Source: Candidatus Poribacteria bacterium
Lineage (GTDB): Bacteria > Poribacteria > WGA-4E > WGA-3G
Assembly: GCA_012270875.1 (NCBI GenBank)
Contig: JAAXHI010000360.1
Location: 1 to 41,995 of the forward strand
Length of the DNA: 41,995 nt
Direction: 5' to 3'
In this document: positions 4,955 through 41,856 of the stretch, one piece after another
Position numbering within the stretch: position 1 is the stretch's first letter
How the letters are laid out: each line of letters begins with the position of its first letter
Position numbers and translations under genes: made by a program
Notes under the pieces: model-generated
Told to the model about the DNA's origin: nothing
Database searches by the model: none
The model's input: the letters and a program-made list of their open reading frames with translations, nothing else

Positions 4955-5036
4955 TGCGTCTTTATAGTTAACAAATGGGGTGGGTGCTTGGTGCCACTCG
5001 CCGGTGTGCAGCTCGTGCATGAAGGAGGACGCTCTC

Positions 5037-6347
5037 ATGACGGATTTATTGGCAGCACGCGCACAGATGGCGATGTCACTTGCATTTCACATCATTTTCG
5101 CGGCAGTCGGGATAGCGATGCCACTGTTGATGGTAATTGCCGAAGGACTGTGGCTCAAAACGCGAGAAGAGGTCTATCTGACACTGGCGAAGCAGTGGGC
5201 AAAAGGCACGGCTATTATGTTCGCTGTCGGGGCGGTCTCAGGAACTGTTTTGTCTTTTGAACTCGGTCTGTTGTGGCCCAATTTCATGGCTTACGCGGGT
5301 CCTATCATTGGGATGCCGTTTTCGTTGGAAGGGTTCGCGTTCTTCCTTGAAGCGATCTTCTTGGGACTTTACCTCTACGGCTGGGACCGCATCCCAAAAT
5401 ATGCACACTGGTTTGCCGGTATGATGGTGCTGCTCGGCGGCACATTTTCCGGCATCTTTGTTGTTACCGCGAACGCATGGATGAACACACCTACCGGTTT
5501 TTCAATCGTCAATGGCGAGGTAACAGACGTTGATCCAATCGCGGCGATGCTGAATCCTTCCTCCTTCAGCCAAGCACTTCACATGACCATCGCTGCCTTT
5601 CTGGCAGTCGGATTTGCGGTAGCAGGCATCCACGCCTATTTCCTGCGACGCGATCCCGATAACCTATTCCATCGCCGGGCGTTTGCTATTGCTTTGAGCG
5701 TTGGGGGTGTATTCGCGCTCCTCCAACCGATTTCAGGCGACATCAGTGCCAAGAAGCTCGCGAAGTACCAACCCATTAAGCTCGCAGCGATGGAGGCACA
5801 GTGGGAGACGGAACGCGGCGCGCCATTACGCATCGGCGGTATTCCCGACGAAGACGCTGAAGTAACCCGATATGCGATCGAGATTCCGAAGGCTCTCAGT
5901 TTCCTCGCACATTCTGATTTCAACGCAGAGATCATGGGACTTAAAGACGTTCCGCGTGAAAATCGTCCACCTGTCGCAATCGTGCATTTCGCGTTTCAGA
6001 TTATGGTTGCATGTGGAATAGTCCTGATTACTGCTGGTGTCCTTGGCGGCTGGTTAGCGTGGAGACACAAAAGGCTGCCAACCGAACGCTGGTATCTTCG
6101 GTTCATCACGCTCTGCACACCGCTCGGATTTATCGCAATTGAAGCGGGTTGGACGGTCACGGAAGTCGGACGACAACCGTGGATTATCTATAACTACATG
6201 CGCACAGCAGACGCCGTAACCCCGATGCCGAACCTCGTTATTCCCTTTATCAGTTTTACTATCCTTTACATTTTTCTCTCAATTATTGTTTTCGTCCTGT
6301 TGCGTCGTCATATCTTCCAGAGTCCACGCTTGTATGACACAAATTAA
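5037..6347 (+). CDS. cydA: Cytochrome bd ubiquinol oxidase subunit I
   Basis: The catalytic subunit of a quinol:O2 oxidoreductase in the inner membrane. I chose ATG 5037 because AAGGAGG ends 8 bases before it; an in-frame upstream ATG at 4980 lacks such a site. The 436-residue protein has the family hallmarks: H18 in the first helix (the heme b595 ligand, H19 in E. coli), the two-glutamate pattern LEGFAFFLEAIFLGLYLYGW (equivalent to E99 and E107), and the quinol-site motif GRQPW in TEVGRQPWIIYNYMRT. It is shorter than E. coli CydA (522 residues), so the Q-loop is of the short, CioA-like type. cydB follows after 12 bp. It contrasts with the second CydA-like protein at 37887, which lacks GRQPW. 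Confidence 0.93.
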   Translation: MTDLLAARAQMAMSLAFHIIFAAVGIAMPLLMVIAEGLWLKTREEVYLTLAKQWAKGTAIMFAVGAVSGTVLSFELGLLWPNFMAYAGPIIGMPFSLEGFAFFLEAIFLGLYLYGWDRIPKYAHWFAGMMVLLGGTFSGIFVVTANAWMNTPTGFSIVNGEVTDVDPIAAMLNPSSFSQALHMTIAAFLAVGFAVAGIHAYFLRRDPDNLFHRRAFAIALSVGGVFALLQPISGDISAKKLAKYQPIKLAAMEAQWETERGAPLRIGGIPDEDAEVTRYAIEIPKALSFLAHSDFNAEIMGLKDVPRENRPPVAIVHFAFQIMVACGIVLITAGVLGGWLAWRHKRLPTERWYLRFITLCTPLGFIAIEAGWTVTEVGRQPWIIYNYMRTADAVTPMPNLVIPFISFTILYIFLSIIVFVLLRRHIFQSPRLYDTN

Positions 6348-6359
6348 TGGGGAAATCGG

Positions 6360-7403
6360 ATGTTAACACTTGAACTCTGCGTTGCTGGTGTGATGCTTAT
6401 CTCACTAATTATCTATATGCTAACCGGGGGCGCAGACTTTGGAGGCGGTGTCTGGGATCTGTTCGCTATGGGTCGCCGCGCCAAAGCGCAACGCGATCTT
6501 ATCACACAAGCCATCGCACCAATCTGGGAAGCGAACCATGTCTGGCTGATTGTGATTATCGTGTTGCTGTTTGTGGCATTTCCAGTTGGATTCGCGGCGA
6601 TTAGCACAGCTTTACACATTCCGCTAACGTTAATGCTCATCGGCATTGTGCTTCGCGGCTCGGCGTTTGTATTTCGTACCTACGATGTCCAATCCGATAC
6701 GACGCATCGCCGTTGGAGCCGGGTATTCGCTATTGGGAGTGCCATCACTCCTGTGATGTTAGGAATTACGCTCGGCGCGGTTGCATCTGGCACAATTCAC
6801 GTTGACGTGGAAAGCGGACAGGTAACCACCGACTTCGTCTCAGCGTGGCTTGCCCCGTTTCCATTTGCAATCGGATTCTTCACCTTGACGCTCTGTGCAT
6901 TGCTCGCCGCGGTGTATCTCACACTGGAGACTGAGGACACCGAGTTGCAGAAAGATTTTCGACGACGCGCGCTTGTCGCAGCAGTAAGTGTCGGCGCAAT
7001 GGCGGGGGTAAGTTTTATCTTATCTGCTGAAGGGGCACCGACAATTCGACGCGGACTCGCAAGTGCCGCTTGGTCCATCCCGTTTCAAATCTTAACAGGC
7101 GCAGTGGCACTCTTGGCGATCTGGACGCTTTGGAACCGTCAATTCCGCCTTGCGCGTATCCTCGTCCCGATACAGGTTACGTTCATCATCTTCGGTTGGG
7201 GACTGGCGCAATATCCCTACCTTGTCACGCCGGACTTAACCTTTTCAAATACGGCTGCACCAGATGCAGTGCTGCGTCCAATGCTGATTGTGCTGGGTAT
7301 AGGTGGTGTGCTGTTAGTGCCGGCATTCTGGTATCTTTACGCTGTGTTTAAGGGGACAGCCAGGAAAACAGAACAAACTGAAGAAGATATTGGCACTTAT
7401 TGA
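6360..7403 (+). CDS. cydB: Cytochrome bd ubiquinol oxidase subunit II
   Basis: A 347-residue multi-pass membrane protein, the partner of CydA. It opens with the classical CydB region: an early membrane helix, GGADFGGGVWDLFA, and then IAPIWEANHVWLIV (about residues 50-70). About eight hydrophobic helices follow, and the C-terminus is charged. The gene lies 12 bp after cydA, so the two form an operon. No small CydX-like ORF was recognised right after it. The gene is followed by an imperfect hairpin (7417-7461) that may mark the end of the transcript. Confidence 0.93.
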   Translation: MLTLELCVAGVMLISLIIYMLTGGADFGGGVWDLFAMGRRAKAQRDLITQAIAPIWEANHVWLIVIIVLLFVAFPVGFAAISTALHIPLTLMLIGIVLRGSAFVFRTYDVQSDTTHRRWSRVFAIGSAITPVMLGITLGAVASGTIHVDVESGQVTTDFVSAWLAPFPFAIGFFTLTLCALLAAVYLTLETEDTELQKDFRRRALVAAVSVGAMAGVSFILSAEGAPTIRRGLASAAWSIPFQILTGAVALLAIWTLWNRQFRLARILVPIQVTFIIFGWGLAQYPYLVTPDLTFSNTAAPDAVLRPMLIVLGIGGVLLVPAFWYLYAVFKGTARKTEQTEEDIGTY

Positions 7404-7742: not shown

Positions 7743-8228
7743 ATGAAACGCTTTTTTGTTTTCACACTGACCGCACTTTTCGTGACAACTTGTCTTTTTC
7801 TAACGAACCTTATCGCTGAAAACGATATGGACACAGATTTTGTATTCGATGGAGATGTAGAAGTATACACGGAAGGGACGACGTGGTTTAATTTCCCACT
7901 CGCCAAGAGCGTGCATCAAGCCGCTGTCCACAATAATAGCAATAAGAGCGTCCGATACTATTATACGTTCAAGGCCACTGTGTCAGGGCCTGAGGAGATT
8001 CCCGCGAAAGAAAAGTCGGATCATGGGTGGGTAGCGAAAAACGACTCGTGGTATGACTCCAAAAACTTTTCTTTCAACATGAGAGGCAGACGATCCGGGA
8101 AATACACGATTACTGCGGAGGCAGACTTAACAGTAAAATCCGATTTGAATGGGGATGGAGATTTTGAGGATATGGGCGAGATTGACGGTGTGGATTCGTC
8201 ATGCTCCACCACATTTCGGATCAAGTAG
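7743..8228 (+). CDS. Secreted protein of unknown function
   Basis: A 161-residue protein with a clear N-terminal signal peptide (MKRFF, then a hydrophobic stretch ending NLIA before END). The start is fixed by AAAAGGAG (7727-7734), 8 bases before the ATG. The mature part has an SVRYYYTFKATVSGPEE stretch of likely beta strands and, near the C-terminus, DLNGDGDFEDMGEIDG. The latter resembles a calcium-binding DxNxDG loop as in dockerins and EF-hand-like repeats. I do not recognise the family. It lies 100 bp before the triplicated PD40 genes, in the same direction, and may belong to the same secreted set. Confidence 0.7.
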   Translation: MKRFFVFTLTALFVTTCLFLTNLIAENDMDTDFVFDGDVEVYTEGTTWFNFPLAKSVHQAAVHNNSNKSVRYYYTFKATVSGPEEIPAKEKSDHGWVAKNDSWYDSKNFSFNMRGRRSGKYTITAEADLTVKSDLNGDGDFEDMGEIDGVDSSCSTTFRIK

Positions 8229-8257
8229 CCCTTTTCCATCTGGAAACATCCAATAAC

Positions 8258-8293
8258 GCAAGCGGTGGGAGCGATACTTGCCTCGCCGCTTGC
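8258..8293 (+). other. Conserved leader hairpin, PD40 copy 1
   Basis: A 12-bp stem: GCAAGCGGTGGG (8258-8269) pairs with CTCGCCGCTTGC (8282-8293), with two G-T wobbles. It ends about 37 bp before the ATG at 8330. The same hairpin precedes the other two copies, with a compensatory base change in copy 2. Confidence 0.6.
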
Positions 8294-8329
8294 CTCCAAA
8301 GCATCACGCGTGCTTAAGGAGGAAACATC

Positions 8330-9373: not shown

Positions 9374-9442
9374 TGAACCAATAAAACGGATCAACCGATT
9401 TTGATATTGAATAACCTTCACCATCAAGAATCATCCGATAAC

Positions 9443-9478
9443 GCAAGCAGTGAGAGTGAGACTCGCCTCGCTGCTTGC
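9443..9478 (+). other. Conserved leader hairpin, PD40 copy 2
   Basis: GCAAGCAGTGAG (9443-9454) pairs with CTCGCTGCTTGC (9467-9478). Compared with copies 1 and 3 the seventh base pair changed from G-C to A-T, a compensatory change that keeps the stem. It ends about 37 bp before the GTG start. Confidence 0.6.
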
Positions 9479-9514
9479 CTCCAAAGCATCAGTTGTACCT
9501 AAGGAGGAAACATC

Positions 9515-10561
9515 GTGAACCGTCTAAAGACAAACGTTCTCTCACAAACAACAAGATTTTTCTTCGCCTGCTGTCTGCTCTTGTTTGCGGGTGCTACGGT
9601 TTCCGTTGACGCGAAGATCGTCTTTTGTGTTAACGATGACCTTTACGTCATGAACGATGACGGCACCCACAGACGCAGAATCACAAAAAACACGCAGGCA
9701 AAAGACCGTCACCCGCGCTGGTCTCCTGATGGCACACAAATCGCCTTTACCCGATTCATGGACAAGGACAGGATACAGACCTCGTCCGAGGTGTTCATCA
9801 TTAACGCAGATGGAACAGCACCACAGCAACTCACACATAACAACATCGCCGACGGGTATCCGTCTTGGTCCCCAGATGGACACCATATCGCTTTTAAGAG
9901 TCGCCCTGGGGGAAAATCAAATGTGTTCGTCATAGAGGTGGAGAGTCAGACCATCACACAGCTAACGGGTATCGATGAAGATGAGGTAGGGTCCACCGCA
10001 CCTGACTGGTCTCCTGATGGCACACAGATAGTTTTTGAGCGGTTCATCCGAATCAAAAACGGGATCAACCCGAAAACGATCTACGTGATGTCTGCAGATG
10101 GGCAGCACCCGCGCCCTGTCCTTCCCGATCCACCTTTCAACGGCCCGCCGACGTTCAGGTTCTTTCCGCGCTGGTCGGCAGACGGACAACGTATCCTATT
10201 TGCTGAAGTCAAATGGTTTGAGACAAAAGATATCGAGAAGATCATTGTTCAGCGGATTGGCAGCAGGAAACAGGAAATAACAGATATAAATGACAGACTC
10301 GGAAACAATTGGTTAGGAGCCGGTACGTGTTGGATGGACAATGACCGTGCCATCCTCTTCTCAATAAGGCGTTCGGATAAACCCGCCCCGAATTATGACA
10401 TCTATCGCTATACATTTGGGACGCGGGGTCTGAGACGGCTGCCATCGATGGACAGTGATGAGCGGAATCCGGACTGGACAGAAGGTGCGTTGTCTGTTTC
10501 ACCATACGGCAAGTTGACAACGCTGTGGGGCGAGATAAAGCAGCCCGCACACGCTGATTGA
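9515..10561 (+). CDS. Secreted PD40/TolB-like beta-propeller protein, copy 2
   Basis: A 348-residue paralogue of the gene at 8330. It has the same signal peptide, PD40 blades and C-terminal tail. It starts with GTG rather than ATG after the same AAGGAGGAAAC site. It differs from copy 1 mainly around residues 108-150 (GYPSWSPDGHHIAFKSRPGG, then EVESQTITQLTGIDEDEVG), where it also carries one extra residue. From about residue 230 onwards it is almost identical to copy 1 (ETKDIEKIIVQRIGSRKQE). This patchwork suggests gene conversion or recombination among the copies. The substrate or partner is unknown. Confidence 0.85.
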   Translation: MNRLKTNVLSQTTRFFFACCLLLFAGATVSVDAKIVFCVNDDLYVMNDDGTHRRRITKNTQAKDRHPRWSPDGTQIAFTRFMDKDRIQTSSEVFIINADGTAPQQLTHNNIADGYPSWSPDGHHIAFKSRPGGKSNVFVIEVESQTITQLTGIDEDEVGSTAPDWSPDGTQIVFERFIRIKNGINPKTIYVMSADGQHPRPVLPDPPFNGPPTFRFFPRWSADGQRILFAEVKWFETKDIEKIIVQRIGSRKQEITDINDRLGNNWLGAGTCWMDNDRAILFSIRRSDKPAPNYDIYRYTFGTRGLRRLPSMDSDERNPDWTEGALSVSPYGKLTTLWGEIKQPAHAD

Positions 10562-10630
10562 TGAACCAATAAAACGGATCAACCGATTTTGATATTGAAT
10601 AACCTTCACCATCAAGAATCACCCGATAAC

Positions 10631-10665
10631 GCAAGCGGTGAGAGGATACTCGCCTCGCCGCTTGC
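10631..10665 (+). other. Conserved leader hairpin, PD40 copy 3
   Basis: GCAAGCGGTGAG (10631-10642) pairs with CTCGCCGCTTGC (10654-10665), a 12-bp stem with one T-G wobble. It ends about 36 bp before the GTG start at 10702. Confidence 0.6.
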
Positions 10666-10701
10666 CTCCAAAGCATCAGTTGTACCTAAGGAGGAAACAT
10701 C

Positions 10702-11745
10702 GTGAACCGTCTAAAGACAAACGTTCTCTCACAAACAACAAGATTTTTCTTCGCCTGCTGTCTGCTCTTGTTTGCGGGTGCTACGGTTTCCGTTGACGCG
10801 AAGATCGTCTTTTGTGTTGACGATGACCTTTACGTCATGAACGATGACGGCACCCACAGACGCAGGCTCACAAAAAACACGCAGGCGAAAGACCGTCACC
10901 CACGCTGGTCTCCTGATGGCACACAAGTCGCCTTTACCCGATTCATGGACAAGGACAGGATACAGACCTCGTCCGAGGTGTTCATCATTAACGCAGATGG
11001 AACAGACCCACAGCGACTCACGCATAACAACGTCAACGACTCGGATCCGTCTTGGTCTCCCGATGCCCAACACCTCGCTTTTACGAGTACCCGTGGTGGG
11101 AAATGGGATGTGTTCGTCATAGAATTGACGAGTCGGACCGTCACACAGTTAACCGGCATTGAAGATGAGGTAGGGTCCGTGGCTCCCGACTGGTCGCCGG
11201 ATGGGACACAGATAGTTTTTGAGCGGTTCATCCGAATCAAAAACGGGATCAACCCGAAAACGATCTACGTGATGTCTGCAGATGGGCAGCACCCGCGCCC
11301 TGTCCTTCCCGATCCACCTGTCAACGGCCCGCCGACGTTCAGGTTCTTTCCGCGCTGGTCGGCAGACGGACAACGTATCCTCTCTTATGAAGTCAAGTGG
11401 TTTGGTGAACAAGATAAGCGGAGTTTCTTTGTTCAGCCGCTCAGTGGTAGGCGGCGGGACATAGCAGATATTAATGACAGGCTCGGCAACAATTGGCTTA
11501 TCTCAGGGGCAAGTTGGATGGACAATGACCGTGCCATCCTCTTCTCAATAAGGCGTTCGGATAAACCCGCCCCGAATTATGACATCTATCGCTATACATT
11601 TGGGACGCGGGGTCTGAGACGGCTGCCATCGATGGACAGTGATGAGCGGAATCCGGACTGGACAGAAGGTGCGTTGTCTGTTTCACCATACGGCAAGTTG
11701 ACAACGCTGTGGGGCGAGATAAAGCAGCCCGCACACGCTGATTGA
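10702..11745 (+). CDS. Secreted PD40/TolB-like beta-propeller protein, copy 3
   Basis: A 347-residue third paralogue, with a GTG start after AAGGAGGAAAC. The signal peptide, first two blades and C-terminal tail (SPYGKLTTLWGEIKQPAHAD) match copies 1 and 2. The third blade is unique (SDPSWSPDAQHLAFTSTRGG). The next segment (ELTSRTVTQLTGIEDEVG) matches copy 1, not copy 2. Around residues 230-275 it is unique again (YEVKWFGEQDKRSFFVQPL, then LISGASWMDND). The mixed pattern indicates exchange between copies with diversification of particular blades. Confidence 0.85.
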   Translation: MNRLKTNVLSQTTRFFFACCLLLFAGATVSVDAKIVFCVDDDLYVMNDDGTHRRRLTKNTQAKDRHPRWSPDGTQVAFTRFMDKDRIQTSSEVFIINADGTDPQRLTHNNVNDSDPSWSPDAQHLAFTSTRGGKWDVFVIELTSRTVTQLTGIEDEVGSVAPDWSPDGTQIVFERFIRIKNGINPKTIYVMSADGQHPRPVLPDPPVNGPPTFRFFPRWSADGQRILSYEVKWFGEQDKRSFFVQPLSGRRRDIADINDRLGNNWLISGASWMDNDRAILFSIRRSDKPAPNYDIYRYTFGTRGLRRLPSMDSDERNPDWTEGALSVSPYGKLTTLWGEIKQPAHAD

Positions 11746-30202: not shown

Positions 30203-30697
30203 GTGGAAGTGGTATCTCGACGTAAATTTTTCAAATTTCTCGGTTGGGGAAATTTCACTGCAGCACTGGGGTTGACATTGGGACCAGGATTAGTTCGGTA
30301 TCTGTATCCGCGTGTCCTGTTTGAACCGTCCTCCATTTTTAAAGCAGGATTTCCAGCAGAGTATCCGCCGGGCAGCGTTAGCGAAAAGTATAAAAAAGAA
30401 CCTTATGGTGTTTGGATTGTTCGGAAACAGGATGGCGAATTCTACGCCCTCTTAACCATTTGTACACATCTCGGATGCACACCACGCTGGCTCGGTTCAG
30501 AGAGCAAATTCAAATGTCCCTGCCACGGTAGCGGCTTTGACCGGGAAGGTGTTAACTACGAAGGTCCCGCACCACGTCCGCTTGAACGTGTTAAGATTAC
30601 GTTGGCAGAAGATGGTCAGCTCGAAATCGATAAGTCCGTGAAGTTTTTAGGTGAGAAGGGGCAGTGGACGGACCCAGGCTCCTTTTTGAAGGTCTAA
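30203..30697 (+). CDS. Rieske [2Fe-2S] protein of a cytochrome bc/b6f-type complex
   Basis: A 164-residue membrane-anchored iron-sulfur protein that moves electrons from quinol to cytochrome c. The N-terminus has a twin-arginine motif (SRRKFFKFLGWG) and one membrane helix. The cluster motifs are CTHLGC (C87, H89 as ligands, C92 in the disulfide) and CPCHGSGF (C105, H108 as ligands, C107 in the disulfide). The start is GTG 30203 or GTG 30209; neither has a standard Shine-Dalgarno, only a G-rich stretch (GGGGGTGGAA). It is the first gene of the respiratory cluster. Confidence 0.92.
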   Translation: MEVVSRRKFFKFLGWGNFTAALGLTLGPGLVRYLYPRVLFEPSSIFKAGFPAEYPPGSVSEKYKKEPYGVWIVRKQDGEFYALLTICTHLGCTPRWLGSESKFKCPCHGSGFDREGVNYEGPAPRPLERVKITLAEDGQLEIDKSVKFLGEKGQWTDPGSFLKV

Positions 30698-30814: not shown

Positions 30815-31585
30815 ATGAACGAAGAACGAAAAGGGCTCAAAGAAAAGATTACGAATTCCGACATTTGGCGTTCTATATTCCGCCACGGATATGAAGACAC
30901 AGGACGCCGATACACTTTACAGGTTCTCCAAAACGTCTGGTTACATCTCCATCCCCCTCGGGTTTCTCGCCACGCACTCAACTTCCGGTTTACATGGTGC
31001 ATGGGTGGAATTACCTTCCTTATGTTTCTCGTGACAGCCGTCACCGGTGTGCTCCTGATGTTCTATTATCGTCCAACTGCTGAATACGCTTTCCACGATG
31101 TACAATACCTCGAATTTGATATCCCATTCGGTATGCTCCTGCGGAACATGCACCGCTGGGCAGCGCACGGGATGGTTATCTCGGTAATGTTGCACATGTT
31201 CCGGGTCTTTTTGACCGGTTCCTACAAAAAGCCACGAGAATTTAACTGGGCAGTTGGTGTTATCTTACTGCTCGTGACATTTTTCCTCAGCTTCACCGGC
31301 TATCTGCTCCCGTGGGATCAGTTGGCTTTCTGGGCTGTGACTGTTGGAACGAACATGGCACGCGCAACACCGGTCTTAGGGCATGAAGGCCCCTTCGCAC
31401 CGCAGGACATCACACAATCGAATGATGTCCGATTTGCGCTATTGGCAGGGACAATTGTGGGACCCTCAACACTGTTAAGGTTCTATATTCTACATTGTGT
31501 CGCTGTACCACTTCTGGCGAGCGTCTTGATGGCTTTGCATTTCTGGCGTGTCCGTAAAGATGGAGGCATCTCCGGCCCGCTATAA
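30815..31585 (+). CDS. Cytochrome b, N-terminal half (b6-like)
   Basis: A 256-residue membrane protein with four helices that carries the two b hemes. The heme ligand pairs are seen as RNMHRWAAHGMVISVMLHMF (His, 13 residues, His) and YILHCVAVPLLASVLMALHF (His, 14 residues, His). The 14-residue spacing in the second pair is the b6 pattern, in contrast to 13 in bc1. The stretch SFTGYLLPWDQLAFWAVTVG contains the conserved heme and quinol-site residues. The split of cytochrome b into two genes also fits a b6f-like layout. The start codon has only a weak AAAGAG before it. Confidence 0.92.
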   Translation: MNEERKGLKEKITNSDIWRSIFRHGYEDTGRRYTLQVLQNVWLHLHPPRVSRHALNFRFTWCMGGITFLMFLVTAVTGVLLMFYYRPTAEYAFHDVQYLEFDIPFGMLLRNMHRWAAHGMVISVMLHMFRVFLTGSYKKPREFNWAVGVILLLVTFFLSFTGYLLPWDQLAFWAVTVGTNMARATPVLGHEGPFAPQDITQSNDVRFALLAGTIVGPSTLLRFYILHCVAVPLLASVLMALHFWRVRKDGGISGPL

Positions 31586-31728: not shown

Positions 31729-32595
31729 ATGGAGCATTTTATACTGCTGGTGACGAAGCCGGATAACGTCCCTATTGTTGCTATTCTCTTTTTGATACCG
31801 TATTTCATCTGGCTTTCGTACCGGCAAGCGCGCCAAACTGACAAGACAGGGGTGCCTTCGGATGCTGCACTCAACGATAAAGTCTACGTGTGGCCCTATC
31901 TGTGTCGGAACGAATTCATCTGCGCGATTATTGTGATGCTCGTGCTCGGGGTCTGGTCCATTATGATTGATGCCCCACTTGAGGAACCCAGCGACCCAAC
32001 GAAAACACCGAACCCTTCCAAAGCACCTTGGTACTTCCTTGCGCTCCAAGAGATGCTGGTCTATTTCGATCCGTGGATCGCGGGGGTCGTACTCCCTGGA
32101 TTGATTATTGCCGGCTTGATTGCGATTCCCTACATTGACACCAATCCAAAGGGTAAAGGCTACTATACGATCAAAGAGCGTCCGTTCGCACTCGCTGTAT
32201 TCAGCTTCGGATTTATCGTTTTATGGATCGTCTTGATGGTCGTCGGTACATTCCTGAGAGGGCCCGGATGGAACTTCTTCGCGCCGTGGGAAGCATGGGA
32301 TCCACACCTCGTTGTGCCGTTGACAAACGTGAATCTGTCCTATCTTTTCGGTATCCGTGGTGAGGATACTGCAAACTTTTTCGGATTCGTCGTCGTCGCA
32401 GGCTATTTCGCGCTCGGTCCTATCTTCTATTTGTGGAAACGGAACAGTAACCGCTTCTTACAAGAACTCGGTCTTATTCGATATATCGTCGTCTCGTTCC
32501 TGTTCTTAACCATGCTCGCACTGCCAATCAAAATGATCTTGCGAATATTCTTCAATGTGAAATACATCTGGGTATCCCCGTGGTTCAACATATAG
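31729..32595 (+). CDS. Cytochrome b, C-terminal half (subunit IV-like)
   Basis: A 288-residue membrane protein that completes the cytochrome b of the complex. It has the Qo-site region KAPWYFLALQEMLVYFDPW, where APWY stands for the PEWY motif of mitochondrial/proteobacterial enzymes. It has several hydrophobic helices, more than the three of plant subunit IV. GAAGGAG precedes the ATG at 9 bases. The 143-bp gap before it contains a CCTAACCGAACCGCAAGG repeat (31684-31701), also found near 41950. It probably assembles with the preceding cytochrome b, the Rieske protein and the octaheme cytochrome that follows. Confidence 0.88.
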   Translation: MEHFILLVTKPDNVPIVAILFLIPYFIWLSYRQARQTDKTGVPSDAALNDKVYVWPYLCRNEFICAIIVMLVLGVWSIMIDAPLEEPSDPTKTPNPSKAPWYFLALQEMLVYFDPWIAGVVLPGLIIAGLIAIPYIDTNPKGKGYYTIKERPFALAVFSFGFIVLWIVLMVVGTFLRGPGWNFFAPWEAWDPHLVVPLTNVNLSYLFGIRGEDTANFFGFVVVAGYFALGPIFYLWKRNSNRFLQELGLIRYIVVSFLFLTMLALPIKMILRIFFNVKYIWVSPWFNI

Positions 32596-32661: not shown

Positions 32662-35600
32662 ATGGAGGTAGATAAGTTCGTGAGGAACAAAAAAGAAATT
32701 CCTGCTGAAAGTAAATCGTATTCTGCTTTGTTCTTTATTCTGTCCGGACTGTTAGGACTTGTAACTATTTGGGGGTTCTGGAGTGAGATGATCACCCGCC
32801 GTCCCTGGAAGCAGATCCAGCAGCAGTTTTATCAATATGAATATGAGAAAACACACGCGGAATTAGAGAACGCAAAGTTGGCTTTGCCCGAACTTCCCGC
32901 ACCTCAAGAACCTGACGCGAAAGAGTTAGCAAGGTTGACAAAAGAGGTGCGAGACGCTCAAGTCACACTCGACGAAGCACTGCAGGAACGCAAATTCCGA
33001 CAGAGCGAATCGGACGCGATTAACTATAAATATCAGCATAGCCTCCACGTCGCAAAAGGGAAACCCGACGCGACTGTTAAAAAGTGGCAAGAGAAATTGG
33101 CTGAACTTGAATCCCAAATTGAAGACGAACTGACCGAAGCCGTCTTGACAGCTGAGGCTACTTTCGCTGATGTAAACAAAGCGTTGGCGCAGTTCTATCA
33201 AACCAGCGGAGACCCGCAGCACGCACTCAGCACCTATCTCATCGCGCAGAAATATAACACCACAGACACGGAAATTACTGAAGGTATCACCGCTGCACAA
33301 GCCTCACTTCAGGCACTACAAGTCGATAAAGCAAAATATGACGAAGTCGAACGTCTACAGGAAAAATTACATTCGGTCGGTGGTATCAAGCGAACCTTCC
33401 TCGGCAGTCTATTAGAAAACCCGTTCCGTGAAACGCGGACGATCACGCAATACTATCTTGAGGACTTCAATTACACCGCAGACAGGTGTGCGACCTGCCA
33501 CTTTTCTGCTGATAGAAGCGGCTACGAACAATCCGCAGAAGAGACGTTTGAGGTCGAAGGTGATGGCGAAAATCTTGTTGTCCACCGTCTCAAGCATCCA
33601 AGTGTCAAGGTCGGTAGTGAAAGCGTCATAATTGATGACTTTGATGCGGAAGCAGACGAATATACACTGGAAGAAAACGGTACGCTCACCTTTAATGACG
33701 TAGACGTTTTTGGCGAAGTCCAAATTTCTTATGAGACCGGCTATCGCTCCGTCCTTCAGACGCATCCACACCGCGATGTCCTCCTCGCGAAGCACCCTGT
33801 TGACAGGTTTGGGTGTGTACCGTGCCACGGTGGACAAGCACAAGCACTGACAGCAAAAGCCGCCCACGCGCTAACACACGCTGAATACTGGCTCAGCCCC
33901 GTACTCGGATTGGATGAACATACCGGTAGAACCTCTGAAGAGACGAAAGGGTATATGGAGTCTAATTGCCGCCGTTGTCATGATGGGGTCATGAAGTTAG
34001 ATTACGGCGTGAACCCTGAAACAGATGAACCTGTGGACTATGCCCCGAATCTGACAAAAGGGTTGGCACTCTTTGAAGACCTCGGCTGCCACGGCTGCCA
34101 CGCTGTGGAAGGGTATAGTGCAATCGAAAACATCAACAAAGTCGGTCCATCGCTCGCAAAAGTTGGCAGTAAGGTGAAAGATACGGCTTGGCTCGAAAGT
34201 TGGGTTAAAACACCGGAAGCGTATCTACCAAATACGACAATGCCGAACTTCTTCCCCGCTGATGGTATGAGTCAGGTCGTCTACCTCAAGAACGGCGGTG
34301 TACGCACAGGTGTTGTCACCAAAATCGATGGCGGTATTGAGATTAAAACGGATGATGGCACTGTATATCCCTATACCGATGATTATGTCCTCCGCATCGT
34401 TGATGAGGTGAAATCTATTGCAGCATATCTCGCCACGATGAACGATACCAATCTTGACGAAGCCTCCGTAAACTATTCCACATCTGAAAGCGTTATTAAA
34501 GCAGGTGAAGAGACTGTTAAAACCGTCGGCTGTCTCTCGTGCCATGCCGTTGATGGTTTAGGCAGCGATTTTGCACCAGCACTCGACAGTGTCGGCACAA
34601 AAGTTACACCGAATTATCTCCGTCAATGGATTAGCGACCCGAAATCTTATGATCCTGATACGAGTATGCCAAGCTTACGGTTAAGTACTCGCGAAATTGA
34701 TAACGTTGTTGCCTATCTAATGAGTTTGCAACAGCCAACAGCCAATGTAGCGACTGATTCTATTGGTGAAGTGGATGTCGCCGAAGGTGAGGCACTTGTC
34801 AGAACTTACGGATGCTTCGGTTGCCACGAAATTCCAGGTTTTGAGAATGAATCCAAAGTCGGTGCCGACCTCGGTGAATTCGGCGCGAAACTTGCTGATG
34901 AACTTGACTTTGGCGATACAGTAGGCGTTGAACACAGTTGGACCGGGTGGACGATTGGGAAGGTTACCGACCCGCGGCGTTATCAGACGCGCCGTATTGT
35001 CTCTCGGATGCCCGTCTTCCAGATTAATGACGAAGACGCAAGGGCACTCGCTGTGCTTTTGAAAAGCTTCCAACCAGAGAAATACCCACTCAGTTATATC
35101 CATAACCGATCCGAAAAATTGGATCGCATTGATGACGGTAGGCGACTCGTCAAAAAATATAACTGCACCGGATGCCACCAGATTGAAGGCGCAGGCGGCG
35201 ATTATCGCGACATTATCATCGCACATGAAGGGCTCAGTGATATGATTGCCACGCAGCTCGCACCGCCACCATTGAAGGCTGAAGGCGCAAGGGTCTATCC
35301 CGACTGGCTGTTCGTTTTCCTCAAAGAACCTTCTGATATTCGCTACGGACTCAAAGTACGGATGCCAACATTCGATCTATCTGATGACGAGGCGACGACG
35401 CTTGTTAAATATTTCTCAGCACTTGACGATGAACCGTTCCCTTATGAAACGATTGAAACACCGATGCCGACGCGTGCTGAATTGCGGGTCGGTAAACAGA
35501 TTTTTGACGAACTGCAGTGTATTTCTTGTCACCCTTCGCAGGGCGAAGTTATTCCTGCAGGCAGTGACAAGGCAGGACGACCCGATCTCGCATTGGCGAA

Positions 35601-35790
35601 AGAACGGCTCAAGGCAGATTGGCTCATTGATTGGATGAAAGATCCGCAGGCGTTCCAACGCGGAACAGCAATGCCACAAGCGTGGCCACTTGTCGGTGGA
35701 CAGCACATGGCAGTTGACGGATACGCTGGCAATGACGCTGAAAAACAGATTCAACTCGTCCGAGATTATCTCATCTCCTTGGGACGCTAA
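32662..35790 (+). CDS. Octaheme membrane-anchored cytochrome c with a coiled-coil domain
   Basis: A 1,042-residue protein. One membrane helix (about 20-40) anchors it, followed by a charged coiled coil (about 50-240) rich in Glu, Lys and Ala. Eight CxxCH heme motifs start at about residues 276, 385, 436, 476, 624, 718, 835 and 953. A small beta domain (GVRTGVVTKIDGGIEIKTDD, about 545-570) lies between hemes four and five. Repeated cytochrome c-like units contain MP motifs (TTMPNFFP, TSMPSLRL, SRMPVF, VRMPTF, TAMPQAW) that may supply Met axial ligands. It is probably the electron acceptor of the cytochrome b/Rieske unit. GTG 32680, preceded by GGAGG at 11 bases, is an alternative start. Confidence 0.88.
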   Translation: MEVDKFVRNKKEIPAESKSYSALFFILSGLLGLVTIWGFWSEMITRRPWKQIQQQFYQYEYEKTHAELENAKLALPELPAPQEPDAKELARLTKEVRDAQVTLDEALQERKFRQSESDAINYKYQHSLHVAKGKPDATVKKWQEKLAELESQIEDELTEAVLTAEATFADVNKALAQFYQTSGDPQHALSTYLIAQKYNTTDTEITEGITAAQASLQALQVDKAKYDEVERLQEKLHSVGGIKRTFLGSLLENPFRETRTITQYYLEDFNYTADRCATCHFSADRSGYEQSAEETFEVEGDGENLVVHRLKHPSVKVGSESVIIDDFDAEADEYTLEENGTLTFNDVDVFGEVQISYETGYRSVLQTHPHRDVLLAKHPVDRFGCVPCHGGQAQALTAKAAHALTHAEYWLSPVLGLDEHTGRTSEETKGYMESNCRRCHDGVMKLDYGVNPETDEPVDYAPNLTKGLALFEDLGCHGCHAVEGYSAIENINKVGPSLAKVGSKVKDTAWLESWVKTPEAYLPNTTMPNFFPADGMSQVVYLKNGGVRTGVVTKIDGGIEIKTDDGTVYPYTDDYVLRIVDEVKSIAAYLATMNDTNLDEASVNYSTSESVIKAGEETVKTVGCLSCHAVDGLGSDFAPALDSVGTKVTPNYLRQWISDPKSYDPDTSMPSLRLSTREIDNVVAYLMSLQQPTANVATDSIGEVDVAEGEALVRTYGCFGCHEIPGFENESKVGADLGEFGAKLADELDFGDTVGVEHSWTGWTIGKVTDPRRYQTRRIVSRMPVFQINDEDARALAVLLKSFQPEKYPLSYIHNRSEKLDRIDDGRRLVKKYNCTGCHQIEGAGGDYRDIIIAHEGLSDMIATQLAPPPLKAEGARVYPDWLFVFLKEPSDIRYGLKVRMPTFDLSDDEATTLVKYFSALDDEPFPYETIETPMPTRAELRVGKQIFDELQCISCHPSQGEVIPAGSDKAGRPDLALAKERLKADWLIDWMKDPQAFQRGTAMPQAWPLVGGQHMAVDGYAGNDAEKQIQLVRDYLISLGR

Positions 35791-35906: not shown

Positions 35907-36263
35907 ATGAGACACCTTGTGGTCGTCATCGTCATGATTATTGTGTGGCTCAACGGTTTGATCTGGTTGGGCAGGCAGGTTGATCCGAGTACAAAGTATC
36001 AGTCAGCGGTAGAATACAAGTACGCACGATACTGTGCAGGGTGTCATGGGAACAATGGAGAGGGCAGCGGACGTATCGGGCGTTTCAAAAAGTTGGACCC
36101 GGCGGATCTAACGGATAACAGTCTCTGGGACATGCACGACGATGAACAATTACTCGATAGTATTAACGCCGGAAAGGACGATATGCCAGCGTTCTATTAC
36201 TATCTCAGTGATGAAGAACAACGGGAAATGCTCGCATATATTAAAGAAAGGTTTCGTCCGTAA
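35907..36263 (+). CDS. Membrane-anchored monoheme cytochrome c
   Basis: A 118-residue cytochrome c. The uncleaved N-terminal signal anchor (VVVIVMIIVWLNGLIWLG) is followed by the heme motif CAGCHG (C43) and an MP motif (DDMPAFYYYL), whose Met is the probable sixth ligand. Its size fits a class I cytochrome c that shuttles electrons between neighbouring complexes. It may carry electrons from the octaheme protein to the CydA-like oxidase. The upstream gap is filled by an intergenic repeat and lacks a ribosome binding site. Confidence 0.9.
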   Translation: MRHLVVVIVMIIVWLNGLIWLGRQVDPSTKYQSAVEYKYARYCAGCHGNNGEGSGRIGRFKKLDPADLTDNSLWDMHDDEQLLDSINAGKDDMPAFYYYLSDEEQREMLAYIKERFRP

Positions 36264-36377: not shown

Positions 36378-36839
36378 ATGCGACATTTGATTGTATGTAT
36401 GCTGTTAATGTCCTTTTACAGTTACGGCTTCTCGGATCCAGGCGAGGTTGATGAAGACGGTGGACATTATGATCAAAAAACAGGCGAATACCATTATCAT
36501 ATAAAACCGGATGAACCATCAGATCTGACTTCTGTCCAATCGCAGGCTATTGCGGATGCACAACGCGACGCTTTACAGGTAGATAACAATATCTGGATAG
36601 CAGCTGGGGTTTTCGGCGGTATATTCGGTATAGGTGCTGCTATGATTGTGAAACCTACAGTCCCTCCCATGGCATTGATTGGAAAACCGCCTGAATACAT
36701 TACTTTTTACACCCATGCATATCAAGCCTCCGTAAAAGATGGGCAGGTTAAAGCAGCAACGGCTGGATGTCTCGGAGGAACTGCTGTTTCCATCATGTGT
36801 CTTTTGGTATTACAACAACAGGGTTACGGCTACTACTAA
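36378..36839 (+). CDS. Small membrane protein with a HYHYH motif and a GKPPEY domain
   Basis: A 153-residue protein of unknown function. A signal peptide is followed by GGHYDQKTGEYHYHIKPDEP (about residues 28-47), a His-rich KTGEYHYH motif that could bind metal. Then come a hydrophobic stretch, PMALIGKPPEYITFYTHAYQ, and AATAGCLGGTAVSIMCLLVL as a last hydrophobic segment. The second half matches the protein at 39789 (GKPPEYIAVYIDTYKE, AGC, G-rich helix). GGAGG lies 5 bases before the ATG. Its place between the monoheme cytochrome and cupredoxin genes suggests a role in assembly or in the complex, but this is only inference from context. Confidence 0.7.
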   Translation: MRHLIVCMLLMSFYSYGFSDPGEVDEDGGHYDQKTGEYHYHIKPDEPSDLTSVQSQAIADAQRDALQVDNNIWIAAGVFGGIFGIGAAMIVKPTVPPMALIGKPPEYITFYTHAYQASVKDGQVKAATAGCLGGTAVSIMCLLVLQQQGYGYY

Positions 36840-36990: not shown

Positions 36991-37743
36991 ATGAAAACCC
37001 TAATGACCTTGCTTGTCTTTGGAATGCTGGCGAGCGTTGCATTGGCAGGCAATATCACTGGCACGGTAATGTATGATGGCGACGCACCAGCGCGTCCAGA
37101 ACTAACCGTTACCAAAGACCAGCACTGCATTGACGCTGGAAAAGGCACAAAGTCCGAGGCACTCGTTGTCTCAAAAGGCAAAGGCATCAAAAATGTTGTT
37201 ATTTACGCCCGCGTTCGCGGCGCAAAAGTAACCTTGCCTGAAGAAAACCCGAAGATGGACCAAGTGGATTGTGCTTACTATCCACACGTCTTGGTAGTTC
37301 CTGTCGGTGCTACAGTGGATCTTGTCTCCAGTGATCCAGTGGCGCACAACGTCCACTCACATGCCCAGAAGAATACGGCAGTAAATACGCTGATTCCGAA
37401 TAGCGGGGTAGTTATCCCACATAAAATCGAAAAAGCTGAGGAAATTAAGTTCACATGTGATATCCACGCGTGGATGACCGGCTACATCGTCGCTGTTCCC
37501 AGCAACTTTTATACTGTCACCGGTTACAAGGACGCTGAAGACAAAATGATCAGTTCAGATGCGTATGAAAAGTCAGCGGACACTGGAAAATATACACTCG
37601 AAAATCTGCCTGCCGGTAGAGCGCGCGTCGTCGCATGGCACGAAGAACTCGGCAAAGCGAACAAAACCGTTGAAGTACCCGCAAGTGGTGATATTGCCGT
37701 AAACTTCACAAGTGCTGATTTTAAGAAACAAGAAAAAAAATAG
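36991..37743 (+). CDS. Secreted cupredoxin-like blue copper protein
   Basis: A 250-residue periplasmic protein. A signal peptide (cleavage near ALA-GN, residue 19) is followed by a plastocyanin-like fold. Type 1 copper ligands are visible: His119 or His122 in AHNVHSH, then Cys156, His159 and Met162 in FTCDIHAWMTGYIV. A C-terminal beta domain (TGKYTLENLPAGRARVVAWH, about 200-245) resembles a carboxypeptidase regulatory-like domain. AAGGAG precedes the ATG. It is a candidate electron carrier between the octaheme/monoheme cytochromes and the CydA-like protein encoded next. A role as a copper-binding structural subunit is also possible. Confidence 0.85.
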   Translation: MKTLMTLLVFGMLASVALAGNITGTVMYDGDAPARPELTVTKDQHCIDAGKGTKSEALVVSKGKGIKNVVIYARVRGAKVTLPEENPKMDQVDCAYYPHVLVVPVGATVDLVSSDPVAHNVHSHAQKNTAVNTLIPNSGVVIPHKIEKAEEIKFTCDIHAWMTGYIVAVPSNFYTVTGYKDAEDKMISSDAYEKSADTGKYTLENLPAGRARVVAWHEELGKANKTVEVPASGDIAVNFTSADFKKQEKK

Positions 37744-37886: not shown

Positions 37887-39788
37887 ATGAAAATATCTAA
37901 GAAGCGGCTCTATCTCATACTGGGTTGTGTACTCGTCTTTTATGCCTTGTTAGCTATCGCTCCAGCATTCGCACAGGACGTGACCGAGGCTGAGTATCGC
38001 GCCTTCCCGAAGATCGGTAGCCGAAACGCAGCATGGATCGCCGCGCAGCTCCATCTACTCTTCGGTTCCTTTATTCTCGGCGTCCCGATGTTCGCTGTTA
38101 TCATCGAATTCATCGGTTGGAAGACCAAGGATGAACGATACGACCGGATGGCACAAGAGTTCATTAAACTCTGTATGGGCGCGTTTTCAACAACAGCCTT
38201 ACTCGGTGGTGTGCTCGTCTTCATTCTGATCTGGTGCTATCCGAAAGTGATGAGCAAGCTCAGTGGGATCTTCGGACCGACGATGATTTTTTACGTCATC
38301 CTATTTTTCGGCGAAACCTTTACGCTCTACCTCTATTCCTACGGATGGGATAAGATGCAAGGACGGCATAAAGGCTGGCATCTCTTCCTCGGTGTCTTAT
38401 TAAACGTGTGGGGCACGGCGATTATGTTTGTCTCTAACTCCTGGTTGAGTTACCAGACGAGTCCCGCAACCCAGTACGGTATTCTATCTGAAGGAAGGCG
38501 GAAGTCTTGGATTGAAGAAAAATTGGCTGACGATCCGTCCCTAACACCTGAAACCGCTATGGAGGGGGTTACAAGCCATACAATGGTGCCACTCCACAAC
38601 GAGACAACAGGCGAATTCATGGGGACCCTTTGGGATGCTGTCAATAACTTTACGTGGATGCCTGTTAATATCCATCGGCTTGTCGGGAACATCGCTTTCG
38701 GCGGTTCAATCGTGGCAGCTTATGCCGCGTTCCGGTTCCTCGTCGCTAAGACGAAAGAGGACAAAGCACACTACGATTGGATGGGGTATACCGGGAACTT
38801 CATCGCTCTCTGTGGACTTATACCACTGCCTTTCCTCGGTTATTGGCTCGGTAGAGAAATCTACATGTTCAATAATACGATGGGCATCAACATGATGGGC
38901 AGTCTCTTCTCTTGGCTCTTTATTATTCAAGCAGTGATGATTGGTGTCTTGTTCATCGGTGCCAACTATTACCTCTGGTCAGGCATGGGGCGCATTCAGG
39001 GCGCGGAGATCTACGCGCGTTACCGTCCGTACATGATTACGGTTATTATTATCTGTGTCGCAATCTGGATGACCCCGCGAACGCTCTCTAAAATCTCAAC
39101 CGCCAGTGAATTGAGTGCAATGGGCGGTGCAAACCATCCACACCTCGGACTGTTCGGCTTGATGACTGCCAAGAATACGGCTGTTAACATTATCATCCTT
39201 ACGACTTTCTTGAGCTTCTTGTTCTATCGACGTTCCGGGAAAACACCAACAGCGAGTTGGCGAAAGGTGGGGAACATAGCGATTTCCTCTATCTTATTTT
39301 TCGCAACGATCTCAATTGTGGTGATCGGCATCGTCGGATTTACCGTTCCTACTGACCTACGCGTCAATGTCCTAACCCCGTATCAAGTGCTTGTCGCACT
39401 CGCTGTCATGGCAGTCGTCACTGTTGTTGACATCTTCATGTACCGAAAAGCCACAACATCTGGAACTATTAACTGGGGTGAAATGACGGACCGTTCACAG
39501 TACGTTTTAATCCTTATCGCTATTACGTTTACGTCCCTTATGGGACTGATGGGCTATGCGCGTTCAGGACTAAGAGAAGCATGGCACATCTTCGGGGTTA
39601 TGCAAGATACATCTCCGGATGCATTTACGCCGCTTCTCAGCGAGGCGGTGAACATGGTAGCAATCATCATGGTAGCCTTCTTTGCACTCGTCGGGTTTAT
39701 CTTCTGGCTCGGTTTATGGGGAGAAAAGAAGAAGCAAGCATCAGCAGCTACCGCCGACGCAGCCATCGCCGCTGAGGGTGATGATTAA
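37887..39788 (+). CDS. CydA-like oxidase subunit without the quinol-site motif
   Basis: A 633-residue multi-pass membrane protein homologous to cytochrome bd subunit I, longer than canonical CydA. An N-terminal extension with its own hydrophobic segment ends at AFAQ (residue 30). H56 (AAQLHLLFGSF) corresponds to the heme b595 ligand, and E143 (FFGETFTLYLYSYGW) to E107 of E. coli. The residue eight positions earlier, E99 in E. coli, is Phe. The quinol-site motif GRQPW is absent, in contrast to the protein at 5037. H (NIHRLVGNIAFGG) may be the heme b558 ligand. No CydB-like gene follows. Context suggests electrons come from cytochrome c or cupredoxin. The start codon directly follows a repeat. 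Confidence 0.8.
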   Translation: MKISKKRLYLILGCVLVFYALLAIAPAFAQDVTEAEYRAFPKIGSRNAAWIAAQLHLLFGSFILGVPMFAVIIEFIGWKTKDERYDRMAQEFIKLCMGAFSTTALLGGVLVFILIWCYPKVMSKLSGIFGPTMIFYVILFFGETFTLYLYSYGWDKMQGRHKGWHLFLGVLLNVWGTAIMFVSNSWLSYQTSPATQYGILSEGRRKSWIEEKLADDPSLTPETAMEGVTSHTMVPLHNETTGEFMGTLWDAVNNFTWMPVNIHRLVGNIAFGGSIVAAYAAFRFLVAKTKEDKAHYDWMGYTGNFIALCGLIPLPFLGYWLGREIYMFNNTMGINMMGSLFSWLFIIQAVMIGVLFIGANYYLWSGMGRIQGAEIYARYRPYMITVIIICVAIWMTPRTLSKISTASELSAMGGANHPHLGLFGLMTAKNTAVNIIILTTFLSFLFYRRSGKTPTASWRKVGNIAISSILFFATISIVVIGIVGFTVPTDLRVNVLTPYQVLVALAVMAVVTVVDIFMYRKATTSGTINWGEMTDRSQYVLILIAITFTSLMGLMGYARSGLREAWHIFGVMQDTSPDAFTPLLSEAVNMVAIIMVAFFALVGFIFWLGLWGEKKKQASAATADAAIAAEGDD

Positions 39789-40301
39789 ATGAGAAGGACT
39801 GGTATATTTCTTTTTGTGATAGGGTTGACTTTCGGTTTTCCGCTTATAGCGACTGCTGATTCGTCTCAAGCAGAATTAGAGGTATTAAAGCGAATTACAG
39901 CTGCCGCTAAGCACGATGCTAATGCTGATACTGATGCGGACGGATGTTTCTGGTTTTGTAGCGGTTTTTCTTTAGCACTTGGTGGCGGTTGTCTTTTAGG
40001 TGCGCTCAGTTTGATACCGTCTTATTCATATCGACCTTCTCCGCCGCTCAGTCGACTTGTGGGGAAACCACCTGAATATATCGCAGTTTATATAGATACC
40101 TATAAAGAACAAAGGAGATCGACTGCAGCAGGCGCGGTAGTAGCGGGTTGTGCTTTAGGGGCAGCCACTGCTGGATGTCTGGCACTCGTTGGTGTTTCTC
40201 CATGGTCGACTACGCTTCAGGAATCAACGGGCAAGTATAGACACAGTCTGGATGTACTTTTTATTGGAATCAGTCGCGTGGCAGCGGCTGGTAAACTGTA
40301 A
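39789..40301 (+). CDS. Small membrane protein with a GKPPEY domain
   Basis: A 170-residue protein of unknown function. A signal peptide (LFVIGLTFGFPLIATA) is followed by a helical segment, a Cys-rich patch (DGCFWFCSG), a Gly-rich hydrophobic stretch and LSRLVGKPPEYIAVYIDTYK, then AAGAVVAGCALGAATAGCLA. The GKPPEY region and following hydrophobic segment match the protein at 36378, so they are probably distant paralogues with a shared domain. The ATG follows the CydA-like stop codon without any gap, so they are translationally coupled. It is probably an accessory or assembly factor for the CydA-like protein; this is inference from context. Confidence 0.7.
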   Translation: MRRTGIFLFVIGLTFGFPLIATADSSQAELEVLKRITAAAKHDANADTDADGCFWFCSGFSLALGGGCLLGALSLIPSYSYRPSPPLSRLVGKPPEYIAVYIDTYKEQRRSTAAGAVVAGCALGAATAGCLALVGVSPWSTTLQESTGKYRHSLDVLFIGISRVAAAGKL

Positions 40302-40347: not shown

Positions 40348-41856
40348 ATGTCAAGAAATACGCTCATAAAAATCGCAAGTCTAATCTTAATGGTGGTGAG
40401 TTTCATCGCCTATATCGCTGGTGCATCTGCGTTCCCGATCGCCTCGGAGAATTTACTGCCTTGGTCGGTCTGGTTTCTGATTTCGGTCATTGTGAACATT
40501 GTTTTGTGGACCAGTGTTATGAGGTTATTGACATTCTCGCTTGCCGTGATATGGTTTTACGCCTTTGTCGCAGGGCTTGTCCCCGAAAGTTCCACAGCAG
40601 TGAGTGTAACCGAATTGGATTGGAGCGATCCAGATGCAGTCGCTGAGCTGGGTGCCTTGGTGTTTAATGGGAAAGGACAGTGCGCCGCGTGCCATACCGT
40701 TGATACTTCCGCACCGCCTGGGAGATGTCCCGACTTAACAGACATCGGCGTTAATGCTGCAACCCGCGTCTCCGGCATGGAGGCAAAGGCGTATTTGATT
40801 GAGTCCATGTATCAACCAGCGAACTTTCTTGTTCCCGGCTACGGCAAAATTATGCCAGAGGTATGGAAACCGCCTATTAATCTCTCCAAATTAGAGATTG
40901 AAGCCGTCATCGCTTACCTCCAGAGTCAGGGCGGCGAAATTGACCCCACACCGTTTGATGAACCTATAGATAGAGCGGACGTAGGTGCTACCGCTGAAGC
41001 ACTGCCACCTTTGCTCACCGGTGATTCGGAAATGGGCAAAAAGGTTTTTGTGGATGCCGCGTGTATCTCGTGCCATGCTGTAACCGGAATAGAGAGTCCA
41101 GCAGCCGGTGAGACCAATGAAGACTTTGAAATCGTTACCGCACCGGATCTCTCCGAGATCGCAGCATTTAACGACATGCGCTACCTTGAGGAGTCAATCC
41201 TTCTACCCGGCGCGCAAATTGTCAGTGGCTACGGCGCAGTTACTGTCCGTGCGAAAGGAACCACTTTCCAAGGCACGCTTGTTTCACAAGACGAAGAAAA
41301 AATTGTCGTCCGAACCAAAACAGCAGATGGCATGGAAGAAGAGCATACCATCTTATTGAGCGAACTTGATGACGAACCGATTGAGGATCTCACAAATCTG
41401 AAAGCAAAAGGTTATTTGACTCTAACACTAACGCCTACGGATGCAGACGCACCGGTAAGTGGTGAAATCGTTTCGGAAACAGATGAAACCGTAACGCTTA
41501 AAATTGGAGATGAAAATAAAACTTTTTCTAAAACAGATGTCAAAAGTCAGATGACTGTTATTACTTTCGATGGCGACGAAATTGTGGGCGACTATGTTTC
41601 AGGAACGATGGACGACGACGAAATCGTCTTAATCGTGGACGGAAGTGAAGAGATATTTGATACGTTTGATCTTGAGGAAGCTGCAATGACCCGTGCGCGT
41701 GGTAAGAAACTCCTTGTCACATCACCGATGCCCGAAAACTTCCCGATCATCTTATCGGTCGCAGATTTGACCAATCTACTCTCTTTCTTGAGCACACTCA
41801 CTGGTGCAACAGCGGAAGCAGCACCAACGGAGACAGGAGATACTCCCGCGGAATAA
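40348..41856 (+). CDS. Membrane-anchored diheme cytochrome c
   Basis: A 502-residue protein. Three N-terminal membrane helices (about 5-30, 38-58 and 60-78) are followed by two cytochrome c domains with heme motifs CAACHT (C112) and CISCHA (C239). The first domain has MPEVW (probable Met ligand), and SPMPENF lies near the end. Between the second heme motif and SPMP is a long beta-rich insert (about 295-450) with VRAKGTTFQGTLVSQDEEKI, similar in style to the beta insert in the octaheme protein. ATG 40348 is the first start after an in-frame stop; GGAGG is 15 bases upstream, rather far. It would complete the electron path to the CydA-like subunit. Confidence 0.85.
   Translation: MSRNTLIKIASLILMVVSFIAYIAGASAFPIASENLLPWSVWFLISVIVNIVLWTSVMRLLTFSLAVIWFYAFVAGLVPESSTAVSVTELDWSDPDAVAELGALVFNGKGQCAACHTVDTSAPPGRCPDLTDIGVNAATRVSGMEAKAYLIESMYQPANFLVPGYGKIMPEVWKPPINLSKLEIEAVIAYLQSQGGEIDPTPFDEPIDRADVGATAEALPPLLTGDSEMGKKVFVDAACISCHAVTGIESPAAGETNEDFEIVTAPDLSEIAAFNDMRYLEESILLPGAQIVSGYGAVTVRAKGTTFQGTLVSQDEEKIVVRTKTADGMEEEHTILLSELDDEPIEDLTNLKAKGYLTLTLTPTDADAPVSGEIVSETDETVTLKIGDENKTFSKTDVKSQMTVITFDGDEIVGDYVSGTMDDDEIVLIVDGSEEIFDTFDLEEAAMTRARGKKLLVTSPMPENFPIILSVADLTNLLSFLSTLTGATAEAAPTETGDTPAE

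Follow-up and report, generated by a model that had tools for sequence, protein, structure and literature searches.

What does a CydA-like protein do that has lost glutamates of the cytochrome bd oxidases, has no CydB beside it and belongs to the same gene cluster as an aa3 oxidase? The question is raised by a gene of Candidatus Poribacteria, a sponge symbiont, in the stretch of 41,995 nucleotides that was analysed (hereafter the window). Two Cyt_bd_oxida_I genes were found assembly-wide, both in the window, and the canonical one served for comparison:

4980..6347, + strand: canonical CydA, separate from the cluster studied here
6360..7403, + strand: CydB, the sole copy in the assembly
37887..39788, + strand: CydA-like OR-N type protein of 633 aa with 14 predicted helices (ORF, PF01654, fold search, helix prediction)

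The 633-aa protein matches Pfam PF01654 (Cyt_bd_oxida_I) over residues 46-326 with 67 bits (E 1.4e-18), and profile-profile alignment with CydA gave a probability of 99.4%. The best hits of a PDB sequence search were the CydA of Geobacillus (5doq, E 8.7e-6) and that of Mycobacterium smegmatis (9r2g, E 4.6e-5), while no family for the protein was found in NCBIfam. When an AlphaFold model built from 26 sequences (pLDDT 73.6, pTM 0.74, residues 562-582 below 50) was used for a fold search, the top ten hits were all chains of CydA (Z 19.6-22.7). The fold search yielded no solved relative closer than CydA, a result in which the missing of other families carries no weight. ActC of alternative complex III ranked after CydA with a similar helical-bundle fold at Z 17.0; its 8% identity shows no sequence kinship, and helical bundles without kinship reach Z of about 13-14. 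Given the Pfam score, the profile probability and the ten best fold matches, the homology to CydA is not due to chance. An assembly artefact is likewise ruled out, since the gene occurs at 79-100% identity in all but three of the 57 same-family genomes, hence in 54 (G000-G056, its own included; missing in G008, G023, and G034).

The OR-N (bd-like) family of the cytochrome bd superfamily is known from Nitrospina and Nitrospira, where it is said to be devoid of quinol residues. A bd-like oxidase without quinol residues was published for Nitrospina in 2013, so that this kind of protein has been known since at least then (PMC3578206), and such proteins were later classed as OR-N and regarded as probably cytochrome c-fed (PMC10839748). 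The 633-aa protein very probably belongs to this OR-N family of the cytochrome bd superfamily, judging from its sequence and model: Pfam, profile, fold and alignment all point to a CydA-like helical core with heme-ligand histidines, and the model shows 14 helices of at least 15 residues, with extra helices replacing the Q-loop as described in PMC3578206. Four of the 14 are predicted between TM6 and TM7, where the Q-loop would be (342-367, 380-394, 426-449, and 459-483, in a model of pLDDT 73.6), whereas the Nitrospina protein has three extra helices in that place according to the available text of PMC3578206.

For the residue census, 139 OR-N type proteins of at least 500 aa and eight canonical CydA were aligned with MAFFT, one 310-aa fragment being left out. 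The 139 rows are not independent, as they are mostly near-copies from Poribacteria or Nitrospinota-like genomes, and thinning at 80% identity leaves 34 OR-N proteins; in addition, the 80 named loci were picked by two peptide patterns (about residues 296-303 and 551-558), and invariance in those stretches is biased by this choice. A weakly matching CydA-like protein of 508 aa (locus L050, genome G093) was set aside because a conserved histidine is missing. In a quick tree (SH-aLRT only, many unresolved forks, long-branch warning), OR-N proteins form one clade apart from canonical CydA. The positions that matter below are:

38052..38054, + strand: His56, counterpart of E. coli H19 (139/139 OR-N, 8/8 canonical)
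38289..38291, + strand: Phe135, the residue named in the original prediction; variable in the family (alignment)
38292..38294, + strand: Tyr136, counterpart of E99; invariant (Tyr 139/139 OR-N, Glu 8/8 canonical)
38313..38315, + strand: Glu143, counterpart of E107 (Glu 138/139 OR-N, 8/8 canonical)
38673..38675, + strand: His263, counterpart of H186 (139/139 OR-N)
39564..39566, + strand: Ser560, at the E445 position (Ser 128, Glu 7, Asn 3, Thr 1 of 139)
39567..39584, + strand: GLREAW (561-566), counterpart of GRQPW (hhalign profile alignment and MAFFT multiple alignment)
39585..39587, + strand: His567, an OR-N invariant (139/139 OR-N versus 0/8 canonical CydA)

Much of the core is that of a canonical cytochrome bd such as those of E. 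coli, Geobacillus or the window itself: besides the fold, counterparts of R9, H19, H126, H186, and R448 (E. coli numbering) are identical in 139/139 OR-N proteins, and those of K57, E107, and R448 are mostly kept. H186 is the low-spin heme ligand. The invariants of OR-N that canonical CydA lacks include Arg369 and Arg559 as well as His567, Met337, Met426, Met552, and Met555, the last five being candidates for the second ligand of the low-spin heme. What sets the protein apart from canonical cytochrome bd is the replacement of E99 by Tyr and of E445 by Ser, the loss of M393, and the absence of a Q-loop and of CydB.

In helix III, the two glutamates stand eight residues apart in E. coli-type CydA (4/8 canonical rows) and seven apart in the other four, the CydA of the window among them; the E. 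coli spacing has been put down to an inserted leucine, Leu101 (PMC6853902). OR-N proteins align to the seven-spaced form without a gap, and the counterpart of E99 is therefore Tyr136. The prediction had rightly matched FFGETFTLYLYSYGWDKM (residues 140-157; 38304-38357, + strand) with FFLEAIFLGLYLYGWDRI of the canonical CydA at 4980-6347, and the second glutamate that it took to be kept, Glu143, does align with E107. It also stated that Phe replaces a glutamate tied to hemes and protons eight residues upstream. That glutamate is indeed lost, but Phe135 as its substitute is ruled out by the glutamate spacing: it is merely the neighbour of Tyr136, in a column that holds F66, V40, I12, P12, A3, G3, L2, and W1 among the 139 OR-N proteins. 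Nor is the loss an oddity of one protein, as had been implied, because E99 is absent from all 139 OR-N type proteins.

The E445 region required a similar correction. GRQPW (E. coli CydA 447-451) follows E445, which stands three residues before R448 and is the ligand of heme b595 (PMC6853902). The literal string is absent from the protein, as predicted, but its counterpart GLREAW is retained, with R563 in 139/139 and W566 in 135/139 OR-N rows; many relatives read GLRQHW instead. GRQPW had been called quinol-binding, an assignment that is ruled out by the available literature, where a Lys and a Glu of the Q-loop, which connects helices 6 and 7, are named as quinol residues (PMC8951039) and GRQPW belongs next to E445 (PMC6853902). 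In the MAFFT alignment, which spans inserted helices there, the K252 column is occupied by R369 (Arg 139/139) and the E257 column by E374 (Glu 88/139), and no conserved Met was found at the M393 column in the 139 aligned OR-N rows. With Tyr136 and Ser560 at the sites of E99 and E445, the protein lacks these residues of the canonical quinol-oxidizing cytochrome bd (qOR). The suggestion that its chemistry may differ from O2 reduction by quinol, with the terminal acceptor open, is supported: the heme/proton glutamate is missing, and the protein does not conform to the common type of quinol oxidase.

All seven glutamates at the E445 column belong to proteins from the phylum of genome G087, probably Nitrospinota as inferred from the available part of PMC10839748, in which OR-N was found in 72/77 genomes, many with two kinds. 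Four of these seven rows (L045, L189, L193, and L195) fall into a separate clade of six rows, whose other two members (L182 and L188) are without the Glu.

In the window, the genes around the OR-N gene are:

30203..30697, + strand: Rieske protein (PF00355)
30815..31585, + strand: N-terminal half of cytochrome b, b6-like (PF00033)
31729..32595, + strand: C-terminal half of cytochrome b, subunit IV-like (PF00032)
32662..35790, + strand: octaheme cytochrome c, 1042 aa (eight CxxCH; PF00034)
35907..36263, + strand: monoheme cytochrome c, 118 aa (PF13442)
36991..37743, + strand: periplasmic protein of 250 aa, putatively cupredoxin-like (precedes OR-N in 53/53 Poribacteria loci whose flank is long enough)
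40348..41856, + strand: diheme cytochrome c of the membrane, 502 aa, with which the conserved downstream module starts (PF00034)

No Pfam copper domain was found in the 36991-37743 protein, whose copper domain is putative. Small proteins encoded at 36378-36839 and 39789-40301 flank the cupredoxin and OR-N genes and have a GKPPEYI motif in common; they belong to no Pfam family. The window order thus runs from Rieske protein, split cytochrome b, octaheme c, monoheme c, and putative cupredoxin to OR-N and membrane diheme c, where the contig ends; in relatives it goes on with monoheme c, EB_dh (NxrC-like) diheme c, a second putative cupredoxin, an ABC transporter pair, COX2, and COX1. The remaining cluster of the window genome was located on contig C240, which starts at the monoheme c gene. 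There, COX2 carries the CuA motif and COX1 its usual motifs, GHPEVY and HIHYV. By the look of the sequence, C240 presumably also encodes COX3 and enzymes of heme A/O synthesis.

This module is unbroken wherever the flanks suffice. In a census of the best 80 of 512 matches (57 Poribacteria and 23 other-phyla loci; the 30 strongest matches were taken as loci in the search of same-family and same-order genomes), diheme c, monoheme c, and EB_dh-diheme c lie beside OR-N in 54/54, 54/54, and 50/50 Poribacteria loci and in 21/21, 20/20, and 17/17 loci of other phyla. Upstream bc genes accompany 40/45 Poribacteria loci versus 0/12 of the other phyla, and COX1 lies within 8 kb of OR-N in 7/15 other-phyla loci, COX1 and COX2 counts being bounded by the 8-kb flank. 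Exactly one COX1 was present in each of eight Poribacteria genomes searched, 7.6-10.4 kb downstream of OR-N in seven of them and on C240 in the eighth, that of the window. None of the 80 named loci has a CydB match. CydB occurs only beside canonical CydA, apart from a sub-cut-off fragment with stops in G022 and a scrap with stops (E 0.07) in G005, and G038 and G065 carry OR-N without any CydB. A search of the window genome for a second OR-N, a CydB beyond the canonical pair or a CydA' found none, and each of nine Poribacteria genomes holds a single OR-N, so the two paralogues of an OR-N1 plus OR-N2 CydAA' complex are not there. Beyond the family, OR-N occurs in 11/14 genomes of other families of the same order; among named sequences, Candidatus Poribacteria PYJC01000055.1 matches best (99%), and relatives at about 50-60% identity include, among the matches listed, Latescibacterota, Acidobacteriota, Chloroflexota, Rokubacteria, Gemmatimonadales, and Myxococcota.

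The protein resembles the bd-like oxidase of Nitrospina gracilis (available part of PMC3578206) and the OR-N proteins of Nitrospirales and Nitrospinota in having 14 helices, a conserved N-terminal core, additional helices that replace the Q-loop, and neighbours for mono- and diheme c and cupredoxin. Unlike these, the Poribacterial cluster is without nitrite oxidoreductase genes, has one OR-N instead of two or more, and is surrounded by bc and aa3 genes. The TO_1 to TO_4 complexes of Ca. Manganitrophaceae likewise combine a bd-like protein with partners that differ between complexes, and complex III-like parts belong to TO_3 and TO_4; unlike for the Poribacterial cluster, an aa3 linkage is not mentioned in the available text (PMC9040806).

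That the gene module is unbroken strongly suggests that OR-N exchanges electrons with c-type cytochromes, and the readings differ mainly in where the electrons go. The available literature takes OR-N proteins for O2 reductases (PMC10839748, PMC12342949), and the window protein could possibly be one, fed by the adjacent c cytochromes and reducing O2 at the His56 heme beside Tyr136, with aa3 as a second branch for other O2 levels. The mostly kept counterparts of K57, E107, and R448 fit this, as does the occurrence of OR-N in the Nitrospinota-like genomes G087, G106, and G143, where COX1 is absent (G153 has only a sub-cut-off match); because of these genomes, some OR-N may well reduce O2. It is the loss of both E99 and E445, the lack of CydB and of an A' partner in Poribacteria, and the presence of aa3 within the cluster that speak against it and make us lean to electron transfer. 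Lost glutamate ligands do not prove that O2 chemistry is lost, as an O2-reducing CydAA' with b hemes only was reportedly described by Murali in 2021. The second-paralogue proteins keep the Glu at the E445 site in COX1-free genomes, a residue pattern that would fit an O2 site held by that paralogue and not by the window type.

A cytochrome c:quinone link like alternative complex III, possibly run in reverse so that c-type carriers would drive electrons onto quinone at a new site, has been put forward for the Nitrospina protein (PMC3578206, available part) and would suit the rank of ActC next after CydA in the fold search and genome G077, whose OR-N module adjoins genes for NxrB-like, delta-like and molybdopterin proteins, the last of 1162 aa. 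We regard it as improbable for Poribacteria, where the cluster already includes a bc complex, and no quinone site was identified, the Glu at the E257 column being found in only 88/139 rows; unrelated helical bundles, moreover, reach the Z of about 13-14 given above. Far-fetched in our view is a quinol oxidase in which other residues take over the roles of the Glu and of the quinol site: the invariant R369 at the K252 column and GLREAW in place of GRQPW could be cited for it, against which stand the missing Q-loop with the modelled helices between TM6 and TM7, the losses of M393, E445, and E99, and the c cytochromes encoded next to OR-N wherever the flank suffices.

We therefore tentatively favour, as something that may well but need not be so, a membrane heme-b subunit that passes electrons among c-type carriers while O2 is reduced by aa3. 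In this mechanism, OR-N would no longer take electrons from quinol; the four-helix heme core would be kept with the counterparts of H19, E107, and H186, while E99 became an invariant Tyr and E445, M393, and the CydB partner were lost. We infer that OR-N would assemble with the products of the three downstream genes (diheme c, monoheme c, and EB_dh-diheme c) and relay electrons between the bc complex and the aa3 oxidase via periplasmic c-type carriers, O2 being reduced by the aa3 oxidase of the same cluster and not by OR-N. The residue census, the module order, COX1 in all eight genomes, the single OR-N per genome, and the CydB distribution count for this reading, as does a bd-like/c-cytochrome gene group known from nitrite oxidizers and also from an anaerobic anammox bacterium (PMC3578206, available part); the published view of OR-N as O2 reductases counts against it. 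OR-N versions linked to nitrite oxidoreductase could pass electrons in the opposite direction. The wider picture, in which a former oxidase now serves as a subunit for electron transfer with cytochrome c, Tyr has taken the place of Glu at the old O2 heme, and bc, OR-N and aa3 form a supercomplex in Poribacteria, possibly also in phyla with the same gene order, is rather unlikely.

In Nitrospira that oxidize nitrite, the role of terminal oxidase is ascribed to OR-N proteins, and no report of a purified one appeared in the literature searched, insofar as its text was available. Poribacteria offer a natural contrast, with the same c-cytochrome module, a single OR-N, and a complete aa3 oxidase alongside, and the invariant Tyr at E99 together with the lost E445 (Glu only in a separate second-paralogue clade) marks residues for testing O2 reduction by window-type OR-N. 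The literature search found no report of OR-N in Poribacteria or beside aa3, which does not prove absence; in the available texts, with key work of 2021 outside the search, neither the Poribacterial member nor the invariant Tyr136 substitution or the bc/OR-N/aa3 order had an earlier description. Specialists may find two points new: the Tyr that invariably occupies the old heme site, and an OR-N standing alone within a bc-aa3 cluster.

Several minor observations were made at these loci. The diheme c (40348-41856) and the COX2 of the same cluster (L199, 5469-6329) have a 64-aa insert in common (52% identity), hinting that both proteins may contact one partner. In L043 (G077, same class as the window), a nitrite-oxidoreductase-like cluster comprises NxrB-like, delta, two EB_dh diheme c, OR-N, diheme c, and monoheme c genes. 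A Myxococcota contig (L117) carries two different OR-N modules back to back, at 4780-6915 (- strand) and 7821-9638 (+ strand), and elsewhere in the window, at 8330-11745, three near-identical genes stand in tandem, encoding apparent beta-propeller proteins of 347-348 aa.
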